A model generated the notes under the pieces. It saw nothing but the letters and a program-made list of their open reading frames with translations. It made no database searches and was not told where the DNA came from. From contig JAECYW010000005.1 in the NCBI GenBank assembly GCA_023014335.1, positions 186,001 through 250,000 on the forward strand: DNA of 64,000 nucleotides, read 5' to 3'. The first letter of the stretch is position 1. Every line of letters starts with the position of its first letter. The position numbers and the translations under genes are program-made. This DNA is from Galerina marginata. Taxonomy: Eukaryota; Basidiomycota; Agaricomycetes; Agaricales; Galerinaceae. Below, one piece after another: positions 15,945-63,496 of this stretch.

Positions 15945-18505
15945 CTATCTGCCATGACGAATCTCCCGTTGAGAAAAGCAAGCAATTGAGTCCAACCAGT
16001 CCTCCTCAGTCAACTGCGGCCAAAGTTTGTCCAAAAAGAGCAGTTCGGCCGTTTGTGTCTCCCACAAGAAGAAGCCGCTCGTCCTGCAAAGGCAGCAGCC
16101 AAGTCAGAAAGGCGAAAATGTAATATAACCACCACTCACCTGCGCTCCGAGGTTCTAACGATGAGCTCAACAGGAGGCACGCCGATCTGAGAGCAAAAAG
16201 TCCCCTGACCGATGCTATCCTCAGTAACTTCCGCTCCCCGAGCTATGACGCTTCGCACTGAACGTACGATTTCATCGCGTCCGCCATATCCCACCGCGAC
16301 CTGGAGGAATAACCTCGAGTATTTCCTTGTCATGTCCTCCAAAAATTCGACCGCATCCAATAGGTCTCGCGGTAGTCTTTCCCGACTCCCCACGACGCGA
16401 ACGCGGATTTGGAATAGATGTACCGTCGAGGAGAATGCAAGGTTTTTGAAGTGACAGGTCATCAAGTGGAAGAGGCAGTCGACCTCCTCTTTTGGGCGCC
16501 TGAAGTTCTCGGCAGAAAACGCCCATATGGTGAGATATCGAGGCCCGAGACCTGGGTGGGCATACGCGGCTGTATCGGGCATGAAACGAATCCACCATTC
16601 GAGAATTTTGCCTGCGGTCTGTGCTCCGCGTTGGTGGCCGACTATGACTGGCTGATCAATAGTCCGTGCATAACGTCGATTTCCATCCATGACAAAACCT
16701 ACTGTAAGGATAATTAATATCGAACACCACAAACAAGGCAGGTAGCGAGCTTACTGTGGCGCGGTATTTTTATTTCGCCATTTCCGAATATTATGCTCTC
16801 CTTGATTTGGGTTTTCCAGCGAGCAGCGGTGTCCAGAATATTTCGCCGTATAGCGTCAATGGTTATCCCTGCTAGCTTTGCAGAAAGGCAGATCCAGGGT
16901 GCTATCCAGGTTACAGACCACCGAGCCTCCACAGAACTCAACGACCTTGCCCGTAAAACGCATACGAGAAGGCGCTGGAGGAAAGTTCCCTTCATGGTCC
17001 CCGAGTCAAGCCAAAGCACGTATGAAGGAAGGCCGACCCCGCTGTCAATCGAATTCAACTCTTCGGGGCGCGGCTCATCGAAGAGAATATCCATGGAATG
17101 GATGGTTTGTAAGGAGGACTACGGCGAACAAGTTCACGGGTTTAGTATAGTATTATAATAACACGAGGAGAAAAGATTAGCGTACCGTGAAAACTGGCAT
17201 CAACTGAGGCTCCAGAATAAGCCACAGGCATATTGCTCCACGCAATGGCAGCCACATCAACATTGGGTAGAAGAACCAAAGAACGGCAATCAGTATCTTC
17301 TGGGTTACGCGCCGAAACGGTGTACTAAGCGCCTTGAGCTGGTACCGGTGGTTGTCGCGAACTCGCTGGGGAAGCAAGTCAAAGCCGATCATGAACGCGA
17401 TGCTCGACATAATTTTGCTGATGCAGTTCATTTTTGTAGTCAGAATCGGGGTTTCCATGCTTTGAACGGTGGTTCGGGAGGGATCGAATGAATCTCCCTG
17501 GTCCAGAACGTCTAAATGTTTGTCCAAGGAAATTAAGAAAGATTCGTAATCTTTACTCAAAAGCGCCTCGGGGATGCCAGCGTGCGATCCCATGCTGGCG
17601 AAATCAAGTACTATGGCATCCTTTGCTCTTTTCGAGAGCCTATGAAACAAGTTGTGGGTCAATACTGACGGCCACGAAATCGCACAAGTGTGATACGCAC
17701 GGTCGTCCAAAACGCGTCTCAAAAGCGATGGTAGCCCAAGTGAGCATGCAGACGATGTATACCTTCAGCTCGTCTACATACCCATGCGCTTCGATATCAT
17801 TAGAGATACCTAGTTCCTTGCGCATCTGATCGGTAATTTCCCCCTGGATATCGCGGTGTATCCAACGTAGACAGCTCGCAACCTTCTCCCGTTCATCGGG
17901 AGAGCCGTTGGACGCTACTTCAAAGAAAAGGAGCGTTCGGAGTAGAGGAACCAACGGGCAGGTGTAGAATTCGCAATGGAATTTGGTCTAGGAATGGAAA
18001 TGAGTTAGAAAGGACAATCGTTCGAGTTCAGCTGGGGCGGCGTACAGTGAAGCTTTTCCTCGGGTTATGCGTCTGTTTCAAGTTACAATCATATGAGCAT
18101 GACGACCCATAATTATTCCACTGAGGACCTTACCTGGAGGAGGACCACAGTAACGGAGGCAATAAGACTCATTAAAAAGCCAGCTTTCAATCGAAGCTCA
18201 TCAGTAATATTGACTTCCATAAAGCGAGGATATCGCAGGCGAATGACGGAGGGAATGAGATATGAGCCGACAATGGCGACCAAGCAGGCCTGGAAGGTGA
18301 AGAGCTTTAAACACAATGGGCTGAAGAGTATTAGTACCCCAATAAGACGGAAACTCTCCCGTACGTCGAACGACGTTGGGGTGATGGCGAAGAATGTGGC
18401 GTCGTCGGGAAAAGCATTGGAGGCAGCGGTCTCGGATTTAGGAAGGATGGAAGGCGTTGACAAACTTCTCGTTTCTGCCTTTGAAGAGGAGGTGGTCGTC
18501 GCCAT
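15945..18505 (-). CDS. MpaB-like oxygenase / cis-prenyltransferase fusion, left copy
   Basis: Seven exons (complement of 15945-16083, 16140-16701, 16755-17118, 17186-17639, 17701-17987, 18046-18072, 18134-18505) give 734 aa. N-terminal membrane segments (about 50-125) precede a region like the ER-bound oxygenase MpaB/DUF2236 family: RTLLFFEVA...DEREKVASCLRWIH, FGRPLSKRAKD, HAGIPEALLSKDYESF and LLPQRVRDN. After another hydrophobic stretch comes a complete cis-prenyltransferase: FVMDGNRRYA with catalytic D507, GHQRGAQTAGKILEWW, LTIWAFSAENFRRP, VGYGGRDEI, VRTSERRTSGFFLW and a C-terminal RHG (RxG motif). The latter family condenses isopentenyl diphosphate into cis-polyprenyl diphosphates. The oxygenase half is assigned from remembered family patterns, and its heme ligands are not evident. 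It diverges from the HsbA-like gene. Confidence 0.85.
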
Positions 18506-19937
18506 GCGTGGTCGAGAAGAAGCCAATAGAGGAAAACCGTGAGCGACAAGGATTAGGCGTTCAAAAATAAAACCAAACGCTTCCAGAGATAAAAATTGAA
18601 CCAGTCAGCTGTCAGGCCCTCTTAGAATGGAGCTTCGAAACGACGCAATATCCGGAAAGAAACGAGCTCTCTGACGTATTCAGACAAATAAATCTCTCCG
18701 ACGCTAGAAGAGAACGTGAAGTCGGAGTGACTGATGTTTGTTGGAAGTTTCCTATAACGTGTTAGTAGTAGGCCCTTGATGACACGAATCCGAACAAGAT
18801 TGAAATAGACTGTAATTTCGGGCAAACCTGAATGTTTCAGAAGCACCTCTCCACCAGGTACCGTGAGCACGACTGTAAAGTACCATTGCGTTCAAACTTT
18901 GGCAGAGATGAGTCCAATCCATGGGGCTTAGAGGCTGGAATCGCGTCACACACGATGGACAGAGGCAAGCAACGAATGAAAATGAGCTGACAAACAGGCC
19001 GTGCACAGCCACTGCCCACTGATGGCATCTATGCTATTTTTAATCTGAATTATCGACAGCCAGCTCGGCGGGAAAAAAAACATGATGTGTCGGAACCCCA
19101 GAGCTCGACGATCTCCCGGAAAAAGTTACAGCTGAAAATAAGTAATCTTCTTTCAGGAGCCCTCAGGGCCGGATCCGCCAAGGTCTATGGGTCTATTCAA
19201 TTTTCTATTTCCTTAAAGTTTCTCGCGCCTCGCCTTCTAGTTTGCAGGCGCTCTTCGAGATTTCTCACTTTCATTCTTCCATTTTGACAATCGCTCTTGT
19301 CGAACAGAACTTAATTTTGCCCTTGGTTTGATGCAATTAGATGTTTTCCACATTCTGTTCGGCAGGCATTCGTCTGCCTTGTCGTTTCCCTTGTTCGTCA
19401 CGCTCCACTAGCGCCTCACCAAATTGAATGATATCTGTCTTCGTTCCCCGTTACACTTGATCGGATCTTGAGAGGTTCCGTTCTCCGGATTTGGTCTCCA
19501 TCAGCGCCTATCCCGCTTCCCACCCAGCTGATCCGAAAGCGCTTCTTGTGCTTTCCCCAATGATCCCCATTGTCTTGCCTTAAACTTCGTTCTTCACCGA
19601 GAGGCAGAATTGTAGAAAAGGGTACGCTTCTAAATTCTCTACGTTGGCGTTCTATGTATTCTCGAATTAATGTAAAGGAAATATCGTACAAATGGGCTCA
19701 ATTCATTTACCATTTCTTAGAGCTTCTCGAGCCGAACTAAATAGTGCTTCTATTTGACGTGATTGACGTGTCACTCCCTATCGTTTGTTCGTTCGCATTC
19801 GGTAGTTTTCCATTCCGTAAAGTTGGCTTCCTTTTTCGCCAAATTCCAAGAATGCGGCAACAAAGTAAACTCTATTCTATCCAACGACGAGGTATAAAAA
19901 CCGTACACATTAGATGGTTCATTTCCCATCGTCCAAG
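18506..19937. promoter_or_regulatory. Divergent intergenic region, left arm
   Basis: Lies between the start codons of the fusion gene (minus) and the HsbA-like gene (plus). It is partly conserved with 58873-60918. A frame at 18752-19012 on the minus strand encodes MVLYSRAHGTWWR, also present at 60013-60267, but flanking residues differ freely, so I do not call it a gene. A TATA-like GGTATAAAAA precedes the HsbA-like start at about 19890. Confidence 0.4.
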
Positions 19938-40036: not shown

Positions 40037-41918
40037 ATGTCCGCCCACCAGCCATCGCCCACCGTTCTGTCTTCAGATAAGTCGTTCAAGGACGATAATG
40101 GCACAGTGGTGGACATGTTATCGGATGATACCAGTGATTCAGAAGGTGGTCCTCGTGCATGGGCAACCCTCATAGGAGCGTGAGTCATCTTTTAAATCCA
40201 CATAACTGCAATTCCATACAACTTTTGTAGTTTCTTCGTTGTGTTCTGTTCATCGGGGTGCGGGATTTTTCCTGCAGCAAAGTTTGCACTAAAGAACCGC
40301 ACTATGGTACAGATATGTCAACAGTTTTGGGGTTTACGAAGGTACGCACTTCAATACAACCTATACAGTTGTTCTCATACGATCTCAATAGACTATTATG
40401 TACGAATATATCTGAATGACCATTCGTCATCGAAGATAAAGTTGGCAGTCCTCTGTTTCATCGTCGTACCAAACTGATCGCCCTCTCAGTTGGATCGCAG
40501 GAGCCCAAACGTTTTTGCTCTTCAGCACGGGAATTTTTTCGGGATATGCGATGGATATCGGATACTTGTAACCTCCTCCTCATCTGCCGATTACTTCACG
40601 CTATTTATATCGTCATTACTTTCTAGTCACTATGTGATGCGCCTAGGATCTCTCCTCCTCGTATTCTGCCTGTGCATGGTCTCCATCTCGCAGCCACAAC
40701 AATGGTACCAGGTGCGTTTATTTTAACGTTGGTTTAATACAAGACTTAACATAAATTTTGTTCAGCTATTTCTCGCACAGGGTGTCGGACTTGGGCTTTC
40801 TGTTGGAACCATTTACGTCCCAGCTCTCGCAGTAGTAGCCCAACACTTCAAAAAACGGCGTTCATTAGCAATGGGCATCGCCGCCTCGGGCTCCTCACTC
40901 GGCGGTGTTGTCCACCCCATCATGTTAAACCAGCTTTTTAACTCGCCTCTCGGGTTTCAATGGGGAACGCGAATCAGCGCGTTTTTCAACCTCGGGTTGC
41001 TCCTGATCGCCAATCTACTAATGACCACCCGCCTTCCGCCTCAGACAAAGAAATTTTCGGATCTGGTACCTTATTGGGTTGCTTGTCTCCGCGACCCAAG
41101 CTACCTCGCCGCGATGGCGGGCACCTTCTTTCTCATAACCGGTGTTATTTTTCCAACATACTTTCTTCAGTTAGACTCGATCAAGCACGGTATTAACGTC
41201 AACCTGGCATTCTACATGGTTCGTCGCTTCTCCTCTTAAGTTTGATTCATTGGAATTTGTTTCCTTGTTTGCTAGATTGCCATGATAAACGGCTCAAGTA
41301 CTGCCGGCCGTGTCCTCCCTACAATCGTGGCGGATCGTATAGGGATTTTTAATTTGCTTATACCCTGCACATTCGTCTGCAGCATTATAAACTTCTCAGT
41401 GGTCGCTGTCAATGACGCTGCTGGAGCCATTACTGTGGCTATACTATTTGGGGTGTTCTCTGGCGCAGGTAATTTCCACACTTGATATCACGGAATCAGA
41501 AATAAAGAAACATTTTCAGCAATTTCGCTCCTTGGCCCTATGCTAGCAAATATCTCTACGAATATGTCAGAAGTAGGGTAAGCTGTAGGGTCACTCAATG
41601 CGATGCCTTCTAACGATTTTCGGGTAGTGCGCGTATCGGTCTATGTCTTGGTATTGCAGGAATCGGGACTTTGATCGGTAATCGAACATCTGATTAACAA
41701 GTTGCTATGTTCACCTGTACTTAGGTCCCCCAATAACTGGCGCCCTTTTGACTCCAAGACTCCTCTGGCTTCGACCGGCTCTTTTTAATGGGGTATGTCT
41801 ACTGGCCTAATTGTACAAATTGGGTTATTGATCATTCAATAAGATATGTATGTCTATAAGTGCCATCGTACTTATATTTGCCGGGATAAATTCTTCACGA
41901 GCAAAGGCAAAAAAATAG
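40037..41918 (+). CDS. MFS transporter, monocarboxylate-transporter-like
   Basis: Twelve exons (40037-40179, 40231-40257, 40325-40341, 40392-40440, 40490-40567, 40627-40711, 40766-41218, 41276-41468, 41520-41577, 41628-41677, 41725-41792, 41844-41918) close in frame to 431 aa. They include 17- and 27-nt micro-exons coding GAFFVVFC and FGVYEDYY. Twelve hydrophobic segments can be placed. WIAGAQTFLLFSTGIFSGYAMD (TM2), FKKRRSLAMGIAASGSSLGGVVHPI (TM4-5) and NGSSTAGRVLPTIVADR (loop 8-9) are signatures of fungal MCT/MCH-type facilitators. Expected location is the plasma membrane. Substrate unknown. It lies about 1.5 kb from the UstYa gene, so a role in exporting a peptide product is possible but unproven. 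Confidence 0.85.
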
Positions 41919-43388: not shown

Positions 43389-44088
43389 CTACGAAAATGG
43401 CTTAGGTAGGTAGATGTCATCGGACTCGTCCCAGTGACTTTCTAAATATTCCCTAACTTGTACCCAATTCCTGCACTTATGCACCATACCCATCCCAGTT
43501 GCCCCAAGGTCCTTTACGCCTTGCGGGGTGATATAAGTCTCAGAACGCTCCAGTGTGGTGTCTGCAGCGCACAAGACTGCCTCCCGTAGGTATGTCAGAC
43601 AGTGGTTCATGTGGTGATCGAATCCGGTGCCATTCCCTGGGAAAGCGATGTTGCCTGTCTTTGCTGCCACATACGCGTATCTCATCGCGTCGAGACAATG
43701 CAGTTGGTGATACATCGACAGTACGTAGAAGTCGGAATTGGGTCCCAACTTGACCCAACCTCTGCCGCGTGGGAAGTTGGAGTCCCAGTCCGAATCTGCG
43801 GTCATGGAGAAGACTTCGTCGTCCAACCATTCTCCGACCATCGAGACTGGACGAATATATAGCGGCAGTTGCTTAGGTTGGTCTTCTCCGATGTATGCTA
43901 TCCAGTCAGTAGCATGAGACTTAGTGACAAACCGTCAAGAAATGAGAGTATTATCTCTTACAGTATTCTACCTGTTCGGGATGCAGGTGGACTTGGAGTT
44001 CGTGAATGGTGTTCGTCTTCGATACTAGCTGAACTATCTGCAATAGCGCGAGGAGTGTCAAGCCGCAGATGAGCGACAGCGTCTGCAT
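43389..44088 (-). CDS. UstYa-family (DUF3328) oxidase
   Basis: Two exons (complement of 43389-43897 and 43962-44088; intron GTAAGA...ATAG, phase 1) give 211 aa. A membrane anchor (LSLICGLTLLALLQIVQLV, about 4-22) is followed by the luminal domain with both hallmark motifs: YHQLHC (H106, H109, C110) and HHMNHCLTYLRE (H138, H141, C142). UstYa proteins act in the secretory pathway as copper-dependent oxidases that cyclise or otherwise modify fungal ribosomal peptides such as ustiloxins and asperipin. The length is normal for the family. It is 286 bp from a divergent membrane-protein gene and 2.2 kb from the repeat-peptide precursor, so it is the best candidate tailoring enzyme for it. Confidence 0.9.
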
Positions 44089-44374: not shown

Positions 44375-44805
44375 ATGGCATCCTACGCCCCTCTTACCCA
44401 AGAAGACGATAACTCAAAAGAAGACTTTTCGTCCAACTCCCCTTTAATCTCTGACTCTCAAACAAAGCCGTCTCCAACTCAGAAGCGCCCTATTGGCTTT
44501 CTCATTGCACTTGCGCTACTCGCAATAAATCTCATTCTTATTGGCGTCAATGTATCGCTAGAAAAGCGAGTATTCAACTTAGTCAGAGAGGCCATCCCTC
44601 CTTTGGATCCTATCAACCTGCCAGCGGTTGATCAATATCCCGGACTCAAGGGCGAATCAAGACAAATCAGTAAGTAAGGTTTATGCGCGACGCAAAGTAC
44701 CTACTAATTGGACCTTTTCTCTTCACACCATTGCTTTTAAATAATCGTTTTCATTGAGTAGTACTTTTGCGTCAGAAGGAGATGTACGGGGTTCGGAAGT
44801 CGTAG
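44375..44805 (+). pseudogene. Truncated single-pass membrane protein with DQYxGL motif
   Basis: Exon 44375-44669 encodes MASYAPLTQEDD..., a membrane segment (about 46-66, IGFLIALALLAINLILIGV) and LPAVDQYPGLKG. This is the N-terminal design (cytosolic tail, single TM, LPRPDQYVGL-like motif) of a large Agaricomycete membrane-protein family, and UstYa proteins have a similar start. Splicing at GTAAGT...GAGTAG to 44762-44805 stops after 112 aa, leaving no luminal domain. Another frame at 44763-44883 stays open (TFASEGDVRGSEVVEV) but needs a phase the donor does not give. Probably a degraded gene. Confidence 0.5.
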
Positions 44806-46321: not shown

Positions 46322-47941
46322 ATGCGTTCTTTGACCAGCCTCATTTCTTTCGCCCTTCTGGCCATAAGTATTGCTAATGCGGCTCCCATTACTGGCACCT
46401 CAAACATTGGTGAGCCTTTTATATTCGTCGGTTGATATTTACTGACGCGTAGCATACAGGTGATTATTCCCTCCAAGTAATCCTGGCCTCAGAGGCTCTA
46501 TTCTGATCAATATTCCGGCTTTCCCCTTTAGAATTGAATGGTCGCTCTCCGCCTAAGAATTCCCCCTTAGGTATGGCGACGGAGACGTCCAATACCGAAG
46601 GTATGTTGGTATTTAGAGTCATTTTCCATGCATAATATGTCAAATCCAGCGTTGAATCCCCGCTCCCCACCTAAGAATTCCCCTCTGGGAATGACGACCG
46701 AAACGTCGAACACGGAAGGTAAAACACTACTTCTCTTTTTATTCCTCACTTATGGGTACATCTCAAGCGTTAAATGCCCGCTCTCCTCCTAAGAATTCTC
46801 CCTTGGGCATGACGACTGAAACTTCCAACACTGGAGGTGAATTACAATTTTGGTTTGCTTTTCTCTGCTTACCTGTCTGTATCCATCAGGTTTGAGCGGC
46901 CGCTCTCCTCCTAAGAATTCTCCCTTGGGCATGACGACAGAGACTTCGAACACCGAAGGTGAATTAGTTTCCTGGGTTGTTAACGTTTTTTCTCACTTAA
47001 TTGTTCGCATCAGCCTTGAACGCCCGTTCACCTCCCAAGAATTCTCCCTTGGGAATGACCACGGAAACTTCTAACACCGGAGGTTAACTAGAATCTAGAA
47101 TTTTGGTTTTCCTCGCTTACCTGTACGCATCAGGTTTGAACTCCCGCTCCCCTCCGAAGAATTCTCCCTTAGGAATGACGACTGAAACTTCTAACACCGA
47201 AGGTGACTTAGAATGTCGTGCTGGCAATGTTTTTCTTTGCTTAACTGTTCGCATCAGCTTTAAACGCCCGCTCGCCTCCTAAGAATACTCCTTTGGGGAT
47301 GACAACTGAAACCTCTAACACCGAAGGTGAATTGATATTTTGGGTTTTCAACTATTTTCTCGCTTACCGGTTTGCGTTAGCTTTGAACGGTCGCTCTCCT
47401 CCCAAGAATTCTCCCCTGGGAATGACGACAGAGACTTCGAACACCGGAGGTACATTAGTTTCCTGGGTTTTCAACGATTTTCTTCCTCACCGGTTTGCAT
47501 TAGCTTTGAACGGTCGCTCTCCTCCTAAGAATTCTCCTTTGGGAATGACGACTGAAACTTCTAACACCGGAGGTGAATTAGAATTTTGGCTTGTTTCTCA
47601 TCGTTTACCTGTACCCATCAGGTTTGAATGCTCGCTCGCCTCCTAAGAATTCACCTTTAGGAATGACGACTGAAACTTCTAACACCGAAGGTGAATTAAT
47701 ATTTTGGGTTTTTAGCGATTTTACCGCTTACCCGGTTTGCATCAGCTTTGAACGGGCGCTCCCCGCCTAAGAATTCCCCTCTGGGAATGACGACTGAGAC
47801 GTCGAATACCGAGGGTATGTTGAAATTTCGAGTTGTTGTTCCTTGCTGAATCTTTCACCTCTAGGGCTCAACGCCAGGTCTCCTCCCAAGAATTCTCCCT
47901 TGGGAATGACAACTGAGACGTCGAAGACTGGGTCGTTGTAG
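46322..47941 (+). CDS. Secreted repeat-peptide precursor, one unit per exon
   Basis: Thirteen exons: leader 46322-46409, eleven 69-nt exons (46532-46600, 46650-46718, 46768-46836, 46890-46958, 47014-47082, 47134-47202, 47258-47326, 47381-47449, 47504-47572, 47622-47690, 47746-47814) and the last exon 47865-47941. All introns are phase 1 with GT...AG, 49-56 nt apart from the first (122 nt). The predicted protein has 307 aa. MRSLTSLISFALLAISIANA is a signal peptide. Each unit reads (A/G)LN(G/A/S/P)R, then SPPKNSPLGM, then (T/A)TETSNT(E/G); one unit has T for S in KNTPLG. The last ends KTGSL. The design (signal peptide plus many near-identical copies) is that of fungal ribosomal-peptide or kexin-processed precursors. 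There are no dibasic KR/RR sites and no tyrosine, so processing would be unusual. It could instead be a repetitive wall protein. Confidence 0.85.
46532..47941 (+). repeat. Twelve-unit tandem exon-intron array
   Basis: The unit is 118-124 bp: a 69-nt exon and a 49-55-nt intron. Introns are also similar, often GTGAATTAG...TTTTGG...CTTACC...CATCAG, so whole exon-intron units were duplicated. Exons differ mainly at synonymous sites, apart from the residue before R and the final E/G. Successive starts are spaced 118, 118, 122, 124, 120, 124, 123, 123, 118, 124 and 119 bp. Confidence 0.95.
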
Positions 47942-58872: not shown

Positions 58873-60918
58873 CTTGTACAATGGGAAATAAACCAGCTAA
58901 AGTGTGCCGTTTTTATACCTCGCTCGTTGGATAAAACAAAGTTCACTTCGTTGCCGCATTAGTGGATGTTGGCGAACAAGGAAGCCTGTTTACGGAATTG
59001 AAAACCACCGAATGGGAGCAGGACAAACGATAGGGAGGGACACGTCAATTACATTAATGGAAGAATTATTTAGTTTGGCTCTAGAAGCTTTGGATGAATT
59101 GAGCCCATAGATTATTGTATGATATTTCCTGTGCCTTATTTTAGAATGGAACACTTTCTCTCAAACTGTAGATGACTGAGGAGTATATACCTTTCTACAA
59201 TTCTACAGCTCGGTGAAAAATGAAGTTTAAGGCAAGACTACGGGAAAAACGCCGGAGGCGCTTTCTAATCAGTTGGGAGGACGAGGGATAGGCGCTGGTG
59301 GAGACCAGATCTGGAAAACGGAACCTCCCAAGATCCGACCAAGTGTATAGCACGGGACGAAGACAGATATCATTCACTTTGGGAGTGTACTTTACAAATG
59401 CCAAGGCAGAAGAATGCGTGACGAACAAAATGTGGAAAACGTCTAATTGCACCAAACCAGGAAGAAAATCAAGCTCGGCTCAACAAGCGTGATTGTTTGA
59501 ATGGAAGGGTGAAATGAGGAAATTTCGAAGAGCGCCTCGAAACTAGAAGGCGAGATTCAAGAAAGTTTGGGGAAATAGAAAACTGAATAAGATAAGCCCA
59601 TATCTTGTCGAAGGTTTCAGAGATATGATTTCATGTTATAATATTATTATTGGTGGATAAGCGGCATGGCCTAGTCCCAAATATTTAAATTTGAAGGAAG
59701 GTACAGACAGGTTCACGCATATGTCCTGTCAAGCATTCATATATTCATATATCACCATTTTGACTGCTTCTCGCCTCAAATGTTGCTGTAACGGTTTCCA
59801 ACACCTAATATTTACCGCGTCATTGGCGTCATCGATTTTTCCTATTCGCATAGGAGACTTTGGCGAAGCTGACAGCTCCAGAAGAAAGTTTACAGCTGGT
59901 TTGAGGTCTAACTTTTTCAGAGAGATCGTCGAGCGCTGCCGTTCCACAAGTTATATATTGTGAGGTCCAGACCGAGCTAATTATAACTGTTGATGATGCC
60001 ATCAGTGGCAGTGTGACTGTCAGCGCTTTCGTTGCTTGCCTCTTGCCATCGTGTGTGACGCGATCCCAGCCTTCGAGCCTCAGCTGCCCAGACTCCATGG
60101 ATTGGACTCCTCCTTGCCAAACTTTGATCGAGATGGTACTCTACAGTCGTGCGCACGGTACCTGGTGGAGAGAAGCCTCTGAAGCATTCAGGTTAGCCCG
60201 AAGTTACAATCTGGTTCAATCTTGTTCGGATCAGATTCATATCTGGATGACTTTCCTTAACGTTTAGAACGCGCAAAAAACGCGTTACAGATTCAAATGG
60301 TCTTTCTAAAGCCTAACTGCCGAAGACCCGACCCAGGCACATCAAAATGAGAATGATTTCGACTCCGAACACCTCTTTCTAAACAGCTTATCTGGAAGGG
60401 GGCCCCCTCCCCCCCTTCTAGTTTTAAAACCTGTTCTAAAGGCTTTCCAGACTACATTTTGACCTCCGCGTCCATTTATGACATGATGGCCGGTGTCTCT
60501 TCGCCTTACTATGCCTAATTCAGGTACATATCTTTGCCCCCGCTTTCGTTTTGTAAATTTATATGAAGCTTGTTAAGGTTCTCTAAATTCTGGTGATAAA
60601 TCTCTAACCTGGAGACAGCCGCGAAAACTAGGTCTAGAAATCAGTTTGAAGTCCCAGATCGTTAAGGAAAGTCATCCTCTAACGCTCTATAGGAGACTTC
60701 CAACAAAACATTTGTCACCCAACATCGTTATCGTCACGACCTCTCAACATGCCCAGTGTCAAATTTCGCGTTCTCTTCTAGCCTCGGAGAGATTTCTTTG
60801 CCTGAATTTGGCAGCGAGCTTGTTTCTGTAAGACAATTCGGTTTTATTTTGAACGCCTCAGCCTTGTCGCTCAAGGTATTTTCGCTGTTAAGCTCCCTCG
60901 GCCAGTTCTCGACCACGC
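58873..60918. promoter_or_regulatory. Divergent intergenic region, right arm
   Basis: Between the starts of the HsbA-like gene (minus) and the fusion gene (plus). About 0.6 kb longer than its left counterpart. Contains the conserved MVLYSRAHGTWWR-encoding block at 60013-60267 and a C/G-homopolymer-rich stretch near 60400. A TATAAAAA-type element (GGTATAAAAACGG reversed) precedes the HsbA-like start at about 58910. Confidence 0.4.
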
Positions 60919-63496
60919 ATGGCGACCATCTCCTCTTCAAGTGTAGAAAGGAAAAGCTTGTCACCGCCTTCCATCTCTTCTAAATCCGAGGCCGCTGCTT
61001 CCAATGCTCTTCCCGACGACGCTACATTCTTTGCCGTCACCCCAACGTCGTTCGACGTACGGGAGAGTTTCCGTCTTATTGGTGTACTGATACTCTTGAG
61101 TCCATCGTGTTTGAAGCTCCTCACCTTCCAGGCCTGCTTCGGCGCCGTTGTCGGCTCGTATCTCATTCCTATCATCATTCGCCTGCGATATCCCCGCTTT
61201 ATGGAAGTCAATATTACCGATGACCTCCGATTAAAAGCTGGATTTTTTATGAGTCTTATTGCCTCCGTTACTGTGGTCCTCCTCCAGGTAAGGTCCTCAG
61301 TGGAATTATGGGTCATCATACTCATATCGTTGCAACTTGAAACAGACGCATAACCCTAAGAAAAGCTTCACTGTACGTCCCCCAGCTAAACTTAAATTAT
61401 TGTCTATTCTAACGCAGTTTTCGTTCCTAGACCAAATTTCATTCCGAATTCTATACCTGCCCATTAGTTCCCCTACTCCGGACACTACTCTTCCTCGAAA
61501 TAGCGTACAACGGTGCCCCCGATGAACGTGAGATGGCTGCGAGCTGTCTGCGTTGGATACACCGCGCTATCCAGAAGGCAATTACCGAGGAGACGCGGAA
61601 GGAGCTAGGGATCTCCAATGATGTCGAAGCGCGTGGGTATGTAGACGAGCTGAAGGCATACATCGTCTGCATGCTCACTTGGGCTACCATCGCCTTTCAG
61701 ACGCGTTTTGGACGACCGTGCGTATCATGCTTGTGCGATTTTCATAGCCGTCAGTATTCACCCACCACATGTTTCATAGCTTATCGAAAAGAGCGAAGGA
61801 TGCTGTAGTACTTGACTTCGCCAGCATGGGATCGCACGCTGGCATCCCCGAGGCGCTTTTGAGTAAAAACTACGAATCCTTCATGGTTTCGTTGAACAAA
61901 CATCTAGACGTCCTGGACCAGGAACGTTCATTCGATCTTGCCCGATCCACCGTTCAAAACATGGAAACTCCGATTCTGACAACGAAAATGAACTGGATTA
62001 GCAAAATTATGTCAAGAGTCGCGCTCATGATCGGCTTCGATTTGCTTCCCCAGCGAGTTCGCGACAACCACCAGTACCAGCTCAAGGTTCTGAGTACGCC
62101 CTTTCAGCGCGCGATTCAGAAGATGCTGATCGCAGCTCTCTGGTTCTTTTACCCCATGTTGATGTGGCTGCCATTGCGTGGAGCAATATGCCTGTGGCTC
62201 ATTCTAGAGCCTCAGTTGATGCCAGTTTTTACGGTACGCTGCTCCTTTTCCCCGTTTGTTTATGATATTATACTAATTATGATCATTCGAATCTCTTCTC
62301 CGTAGTCCTCCCTGCAAACCATCCATTCCATGGATATTGTCTCCGACGAGCCTACCTACCCCAATGCGGACAACGAGAGGTTGAAATCCACAGATAGCGA
62401 GGATGAGTTTCCTTCAAATGTACTCTGGCTCGACTCGGGTTCAATGGAGGGAACTTTCCTGCAGCGCCTTCTTGTACGCTTTTTACGGGCAAAGTTGATG
62501 AGCTCTGCGCAAGCTCGCTTGTCTGTCGCCTGGATCGTACCATGGATCTGCCTTTCTGCAAATGTGGCAGGGATAACTGTAGACGTTATACGGCGAAGTA
62601 TTCAGGACACCGCTGCTCGCTGGAAAACGCAGATCAAGGAAAGCATGATATTCGGCGGTGATGAAATTAAAATACCGCGCCACAGTAAGTTCGCTACCTG
62701 GATTATCCTCTGATATTCGATACTAATTTAGCCTCACAGTAGGTTTTGTCATGGATGGAAATCGACGTTACGCCCGGACTATTGGGCAGTCAGTCATAGT
62801 CGGCCACCAACGCGGAGCACAGACCGCAGGCAAAATCCTCGACTGGTGGGTGCGTTTCATGCTCAAAGCAGCGGCATATACCCGCCCAGGTCTCGGGCCT
62901 CGATATCTCACCATATGGGCGTTCTCCGCCGAGAACTTCAAGCGCCCAAAAGTGGAGGTCGACTGTCTCTTTCGCTTGATGACTTTTCACTTCAAGAACC
63001 TTGCATTCTCCTCGACGGTACATCTATTCCAAATTCGCGTTCGCGTCGTAGGGAGTCGGGAAAGACTACCGCGAGACCTGTTGGATGCCATCGAACTTTT
63101 GGAGGACGCGACAAGGAAATACTCGCGGTTGTTCTTCCAGGTTGCTGTGGGCTATGGCGGACGCGATGAAATCGTGCGTTCAGTGCGAAGTGTCGTAGCT
63201 CGGGGAGCGGAAGTTACTGAGGATAGCATTGGCAAGGGAACTTTTTGCTCTCAAATTGGTGTACCTCCTGTTGAGCTTATCGTTAGAACCTCGGAGCGCA
63301 GGTGAGTGGTGGTTAGATCACATTTTCGCCTTTCTAACTAGCCTGCGATTTTTACAGGACAAGCGGCTTCTTCTTGTGGGACACTCAAACCGCCGAACTG
63401 CTCTTTTTGGACAAGCTTTGGCCGCAGTTGACTGAAGAGGACTGGCTGGACGCAATTGGGAGCTTCGCTCAACGGGAGATTCGTAATGGCAGGTAG
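60919..63496 (+). CDS. MpaB-like oxygenase / cis-prenyltransferase fusion, right copy
   Basis: Seven exons (60919-61287, 61346-61372, 61431-61717, 61780-62233, 62306-62684, 62740-63301, 63358-63496) give 738 aa. Exons 2, 3, 4, 6 and 7 have the same length as the left copy; exon 5 is 15 nt longer and exon 1 is 3 nt shorter. Domains in order: two N-terminal hydrophobic segments; the MpaB/DUF2236-like region (about 140-345: RTLLFLEIAYNGAPDERE, RWIHRAI, FGRPLSKRAKD, GIPEALLSKNYESF, LLPQRVRDN); a hydrophobic LWFFYPMLMWLPLRGAICLW segment; and a cis-prenyltransferase (about 505-738) with D511 in MDGNRRYA, WAFSAENFKRP, GYGGRDEI, RTSGFFLWDT and the terminal RNG (RxG). Every prenyltransferase motif is intact. 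The product chain length and whether the oxygenase half is active are unknown. Confidence 0.87.

Follow-up and report, generated by a model that had tools for sequence, protein, structure and literature searches.

A candidate secreted peptide precursor with one repeat per exon beside a UstYa gene in Galerina marginata

A gene for a candidate secreted precursor in which each repeat of the peptide occupies an exon of its own was located in Galerina marginata, in a stretch of 64,000 nucleotides (contig C39, 186001-250000) that is called the window below. The gene spans positions 46322-47941 of the window on the forward strand and comprises 13 exons and 12 introns, giving a spliced product of 307 aa (Table 1). 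The sequence gives good support to a secreted precursor of ribosomal peptides whose repeats are encoded on symmetric exons. It is also likely, in our judgement, that the gene is a micro-exon relative of the dikaritin precursors, the product being secreted, cut and modified by the enzyme of an associated UstYa gene. The exon-per-repeat anatomy of a UstYa-type precursor appears to be new, and the UstYa-type working that the locus suggests is known.

In the mechanism proposed here, splicing would join the signal-peptide exon to twelve micro-exons that contribute one 23-residue unit apiece, and the precursor would enter the secretory pathway and be cut into near-identical peptides, probably at the lone arginine before SPPK. 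A membrane-anchored UstYa enzyme, encoded divergently, would then modify the released peptides, and a transporter of the major facilitator superfamily (MFS) may export the product. For this explanation the exon structure, the coding constraint, the UstYa gene, the transporter and a layout common to four other UstYa loci were read from the sequence; splicing, secretion, the cleavage site, modification and export are what we infer.

Table 1. Features of the precursor gene, its neighbours in the window, and repeat precursors at other UstYa loci. Positions are those of the window unless a contig is named.
Feature	Position	Strand	Length	Basis or remark
MFS transporter, three exons joined, part of longer gene	40766..41590, end approximate	+		PF07690, E 1.3e-14
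UstYa (PF11807, DUF3328) oxidase gene	43389..44088, exons 44088-43962 and 43897-43389	-	211 aa	72.6 bits against a cut-off of 25
Small ORF between UstYa and precursor	44375..44671	+	99 codons	One transmembrane-like stretch
Start codon ATG	46322-46324	+		Spliced translation
Exon 1, signal-peptide-like MRSLTSLISFALLAISIANA, then APITGTSNI	46322..46409	+	88 nt	By eye and by a simple signal-like scan
Intron 1	46410..46531	+	122 nt	GT-AG, phase 1
Repeat exon 1	46532..46600	+	69 nt	ELNGRSPPKNSPLGMATETSNTE
Repeat exon 2	46650..46718	+	69 nt	ALNPRSPPKNSPLGMTTETSNTE
Repeat exon 3	46768..46836	+	69 nt	
Repeat exon 4	46890..46958	+	69 nt	Sole unit with LSGR
Repeat exon 5	47014..47082	+	69 nt	
Repeat exon 6	47134..47202	+	69 nt	
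Repeat exon 7	47258..47326	+	69 nt	Sole unit with NTPLG
Repeat exon 8	47381..47449	+	69 nt	
Repeat exon 9	47504..47572	+	69 nt	
Repeat exon 10	47622..47690	+	69 nt	
Repeat exon 11	47746..47814	+	69 nt	
Repeat exon 12 and stop TAG	47865..47941	+	77 nt	
C28 precursor, 13 micro-exons	C28, about 93890-95214	-	42 nt per exon	13th exon ends in stop; pN/pS 0.126 (13 units)
C43 precursor, 16 micro-exons of AEDVDQGNIIWS type	C43, about 451897-453600			pN/pS 0.150 (10 of 16 units, those matching the expression)
C39 precursor, 4 exon-units, [ED]STVDEASINWGK	C39, near 67.5 kb			pN/pS 0.023 (4 units)
C23 precursor, single exon, 6 units, AEDPAGIDGVSFAHAYTSR	C23, near 177.5 kb			pN/pS 0.069 (6 units)

Structure and coding constraint of the precursor gene

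The first-pass annotation had described a signal-peptide exon followed by twelve phase-1 exons, each encoding one 23-residue unit, and both the exactness of these coordinates and the openness of the 307-aa frame were confirmed. All 12 introns are bounded by GT and AG and lie in phase 1, and introns 2-12 measure 49-55 nt. The identical design ascribed to the exons holds as a design and not as sequence identity, since units 1, 4, 7 and 12 each depart at one place from the part that is otherwise constant, and GSL-stop closes unit 12; the introns had been called near-identical, which overstated a mean pairwise identity of 67% for introns 2-12 compared with 80% for the exons. Because the eleven 69-nt exons both begin and end in phase 1, adding, losing or skipping any of them would alter the dose and keep the frame, and it follows from the anatomy that the number of units could change in this manner. 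Under intron retention, an in-frame stop would be read in 4 of the 12 introns; three have a length that is a multiple of three, and two (the 8th and 9th) combine such a length with freedom from stops.

The units follow the consensus ALNxRSPPKNSPLGMTTETSNT[EG], in which the first place is held by A, G or E. The lone arginine before SPPK is kept in 12/12 units and the residue ahead of it is small (G, P, A or S). Ser, Thr, Pro and Asn are abundant in the unit, from which Tyr, Trp, Phe and Cys are absent. Neither Cys nor Trp occurs anywhere in the 307-aa precursor, and the absence of KR, RR and KK from it rules out Kex2 processing at dibasic sites. The stretch RSPPKNSPLGM may bear some resemblance to plant peptide hormones.

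The repeat exons are coding. Across the 66 pairs among the 12 units, pS was 0.588 and pN 0.048 (pN/pS 0.082), with pN as low as 0.018 within the stretch RSPPKNSPLGMTTETSN. Variable columns numbered 6, 3 and 19 at codon positions 1, 2 and 3, of 22 each (hypergeometric p 3e-7, a value that treats the columns as independent, which those of related repeats not quite are). Synonymous sites have thus diverged and amino acids have not, and the internal exons are fixed at 69 nt compared with the variable length of introns 2-12. The array was also detected as a tandem repeat by Tandem Repeats Finder, with a spacing of 118-124 bp and an additional 244-bp double period; exon and intron are duplicated together.

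A search of the 69.3-Mb genome (43 contigs) with the core pattern of the unit returned 12 exact matches, every one in the precursor array, and the reversed pattern returned none, which argues that the array is not a product of chance. Protein search of the genome agreed that the array occurs once, save for one match with E 0.8 elsewhere. A search of 5.8 billion proteins, in which scoring covered the 7994 candidates with the most words in common, yielded no relative of the precursor (best E 0.5, taken as chance), and Pfam gave a single row with E 9.3. The core pattern was matched 7 times in bacterial and archaeal genomes, always singly, and not at all in viral contigs. The earlier proposal of a new ribosomal-peptide family can be kept for the peptide, given this lack of relatives, and must be given up for the logic of the locus, which resembles that of repeat precursors already known from the UstYa and Kex2 systems.

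Gene neighbourhood and survey of UstYa loci

Of ten window ORFs compared with Pfam, those for UstYa, a zinc-binding dehydrogenase and an F-box protein were matched and seven were not; PF11807 was found at one place only in the window. The UstYa gene carries both HxxHC motifs (HQLHC and HMNHC) and is divergent from the precursor, with 2234 bp between the two ATG codons. Its main exon has 96% identity over 150 aa to a protein listed as hypothetical in Galerina marginata CBS 339.88, a match present in the collection that gave no relative of the precursor; in that strain the precursor may be unannotated or absent. The MFS transporter was recognised solely after three exons had been joined, a single exon giving no Pfam match, and its position suggests that it belongs to the precursor cluster. 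The small ORF between the two genes had no Pfam match and matched itself alone in the genome; its sequence resembles the N-terminus of a UstYa protein, and it may represent a small gene or a remnant. Elsewhere in the window, two inverted stretches (16136-18542 and 60888-63305) contain similar ORFs, one of them with MDGNRRYARTI, which resembles a cis-prenyltransferase.

The PF11807 profile gave 49 exon-level matches in the genome, or approximately 22 places once neighbours within 10 kb had been merged by hand. Eleven of these were examined, namely the window and 20 kb around each of 10 others, roughly the top-scoring ones. A repeat precursor was found at 5 of the 11 places and was built of one exon per repeat at 4 of those 5, so that this design outnumbered the single-exon one by 4 to 1. 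All five precursors, that of the window included, are head to head with UstYa, at 0.7-2.2 kb from the precursor ATG to the nearest UstYa match (in the window, to the UstYa start codon). By simple arithmetic (approximately 22 places in 69.3 Mb), a random gene would lie this close to UstYa in about 0.2% of cases. The signal-like scan picked up four of the five precursors and missed that of C28, whose ATG was placed from its known sequence.

Exon-per-repeat arrays were identified using a strict chain search for mini-exons of the same phase with at least 60% identity, for which one reversed strand per region served as control. Arrays were recovered at C39 near 67.5 kb, C28, C43 and the window, the last split into a phase-1 piece of 6 exons and a piece of 5 exons read in phase 0, and no chain of 4 or more was found in the reversed controls or in the rest of the window. 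A looser chain search yielded 6 real chains against 1 control chain, which came from the reversed window array itself; it added one piece of the C23 precursor and no new locus. A repeated-peptide scan returned the same four arrays and the single-exon C23 precursor; here the array loci also matched on the reversed controls because the arrays are DNA repeats, so that coding constraint and exon anatomy, rather than this control, carry the claim. Genome-wide searches with patterns of the arrays gave one stray exact match at C2 and, with two mismatches allowed, five matches and one control match; as the patterns were derived from the arrays themselves, these counts show only that those repeat types occur nowhere else in bulk.

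The remaining six places (C23 near 306 kb, C13, C33, C16, C43 near 587 kb and C39 near 487 kb) were without a coding-looking array. Repeats at three of these places were rejected as non-coding, their spacings not all being divisible by three: two 48-bp arrays in opposite orientation close to the UstYa pair at C23 (near 310.2 and 314.1 kb), one weak fourfold match near 659.8 kb on C13 and another near 135.8 kb on C33. At C16 near 88 kb and C33 near 125 kb, near-identical UstYa pairs lie on different contigs, reflecting either a recent duplication or an unmerged haplotype.

The signal-peptide exons of the window gene and of C28, C39 and C43 share A-[AF]-P-[IL] after the hydrophobic core, a motif that C23 does not quite show. 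At C28, every unit exon but the final one closes with Lys and is followed by an exon that opens with Arg, so that a Lys-Arg pair is formed only after splicing at 12/12 unit borders, which ties the exon borders to processing. The C39 precursor near 67.5 kb has such a pair across 3/3 unit borders. At C43, a lone Arg, preceded by Ser, opens most units, and KR opens four or five of the 16; the exact number varies with the choice between two adjacent acceptor AGs (several acceptors read TAGAAG/CGC, with the slash at the border). The choice of acceptor could add or drop the Lys of KR, which would make the cleavage site switchable by splicing. At C23 the link between units is always S-R, with one Arg following Ser. 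The single Arg after a small residue, in the window as at C23 and in most of C43, suggests that the cut would fall after Arg and that the peptides would start with SPPK. No relative of the C28 precursor was found in a protein search (about 8000 candidates scored), and Pfam matches of the sibling precursors (CHZ and others) rest on repeats and were taken as chance. A stretch of C1, 4386327-4386674 on the reverse strand, matches the single-exon C23 precursor query at 94%, as does C23 itself, and has no UstYa match near it.

When the window UstYa was compared with the genome by tblastn, its best matches (E 1e-27 to 1e-31) were the UstYa genes at C13, C16, C33, C43 near 587 kb and C39 near 487 kb. 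Those at C39 near 69 kb, C28 and C43 near 449 kb, which stand beside siblings containing Trp, matched at E 3e-6 to 0.5, and the C23 UstYa near 176 kb was unmatched at E 1 or below. Judged by these matches, the window UstYa is of another subtype than the UstYa genes beside the four siblings. The 20-kb regions around the five loci that share its subtype were free of coding repeat arrays.

Comparison with known systems and alternative explanations

Many short symmetric exons are also found in the micro-exon genes of schistosomes, animal parasites in which such exons encode secreted proteins; those genes are taken as unrelated, and no UstYa-like enzyme is known for them. With the dikaritins (ustiloxins, phomopsins, asperipin-2a and victorin) the window gene shares a signal peptide (recognised by eye), repeated units, a UstYa gene next door and a transporter nearby. 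It differs from them in having one unit per exon, no KR between units and no aromatic residue, and in the lack of any tyrosinase match within the window or of any S41 peptidase match across the genome. An early definition, recounted in a portion of PMC12048977, listed five genes for a dikaritin cluster (tyrosinase, methyltransferase, several DUF3328, and transporter or peptidase), some of which later clusters lack; of this set the window has the transporter and a single PF11807 place. The cluster for asperipin-2a is small too and includes a single UstYa homologue as well as a transporter (described in a section of PMC6514808). According to extracts from PMC6514808 and PMC7329392, dikaritin UstYa enzymes form oxidative rings, mostly on Tyr; Phe is used in the victorin core (extract from PMC9233826), and Tyr is present in 65.6% of the repeat sequences beside DUF3328 genes (extract from PMC7329392). 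As the window unit is free of aromatic residues, the enzyme would either do other chemistry here or act on something other than this peptide, and this feature, together with the mismatch in UstYa subtype, is the weakest link of the UstYa reading.

The Kex2-processed repeat proteins (KEPs) are likewise secreted tandem-repeat precursors, the signal peptide of the window gene again being recognised by eye, and the C28 and C39 siblings have Lys-Arg at their unit borders as KEPs would; KEPs are defined by dibasic sites, however, and the window gene has none. Epichloecyclins, for which a signal peptide and imperfect repeats in GigA give rise to related peptides (excerpts of PMC6514808 and PMC9233826), resemble the window precursor in these two traits and differ from it in their KR (Kex2) sites and Tyr-based rings. 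Because dibasic sites and an aromatic core are absent and the UstYa is of another subtype, the gene was filed neither as a dikaritin nor as a KEP.

The same features could be read as those of a secreted cell-wall or surface protein that works uncut, its repeats giving length and the UstYa gene belonging elsewhere. Secreted repeat proteins rich in Ser, Thr and Pro are known in fungi, and the composition of the unit (Ser, Thr, Pro and Asn, without Cys) and the lack of a dibasic site would suit one. Rps3 is a named fungal example in the consulted part of PMC6374014. We nevertheless regard this as unlikely, since conservation holds for individual residues over almost the entire unit and not only for its composition, a single Arg after a small residue also separates the units at C23 and in most of C43, and the divergent UstYa recurs at four other repeat precursors. 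That recurrence, in 5/5 cases, together with the roughly 0.2% expected for such proximity by chance, also speaks against a precursor of linear, unmodified signalling peptides whose neighbouring UstYa acts on another substrate. Such a precursor would account for the lack of an aromatic residue for known UstYa cross-links and for the difference between the window UstYa and those of the siblings, and an excerpt of PMC7329392 places most Basidiomycota repeat precursors away from DUF3328 (103/1680 near one); on balance it seems improbable. A minisatellite, decayed or non-coding, whose splice sites arose by chance would explain the tandem array and has a parallel in the non-coding-looking arrays near another UstYa locus (C23), but it is scarcely credible in view of the low pN/pS, the constant exon length beside variable introns, the junctions all in phase and a frame that is open from start to stop once spliced. 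The secreted, UstYa-associated precursor is the explanation carried forward.

Consequences for surveys of fungal peptides

It is plausible that the repeats of fungal peptide precursors usually sit in a single exon, as they do in one sibling here. A literature search over titles and the starts of abstracts, with most subscription journals outside its scope, found no description, among the matches listed, of a fungal peptide precursor in which every repeat has its own exon. The survey excerpted from PMC7329392 took 14.5 million annotated proteins as input and reported repeat precursors near DUF3328 at a share of 6.1% in Basidiomycota (103/1680) compared with 30.1% in Ascomycota (1647/5372, as printed); it is proposed there that the enzyme motif differs in Basidiomycota, or that cyclization hardly occurs in them. 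As surveys of this kind start from annotated proteins, precursors cut into exons of 39-69 nt may well be lost, and such micro-exon genes are probably missed by them. Precursors are also missing from UstY clusters of lichens (Lecanoromycetes), as stated in a part of PMC12048977. The cause is perhaps the same, although those data are from Lecanoromycetes and the link to the present genome is offered as a suggestion only.

If gene prediction misses micro-exon precursors, the DUF3328-linked share in Basidiomycota would be undercounted. On an evidence base of one genome and 11 of its approximately 22 UstYa places, examined at the level of sequence, we put forward as a tentative idea, less probable than its opposite, that mushroom-forming fungi hold a large overlooked class of UstYa peptides with one core per symmetric micro-exon, in which the protease site would be formed or switched at the splice junction and splicing would set both the dose and the mix of peptides. 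To such a class the window gene would add an aromatic-free core that is cut at a single Arg and is subject to an unknown UstYa chemistry.
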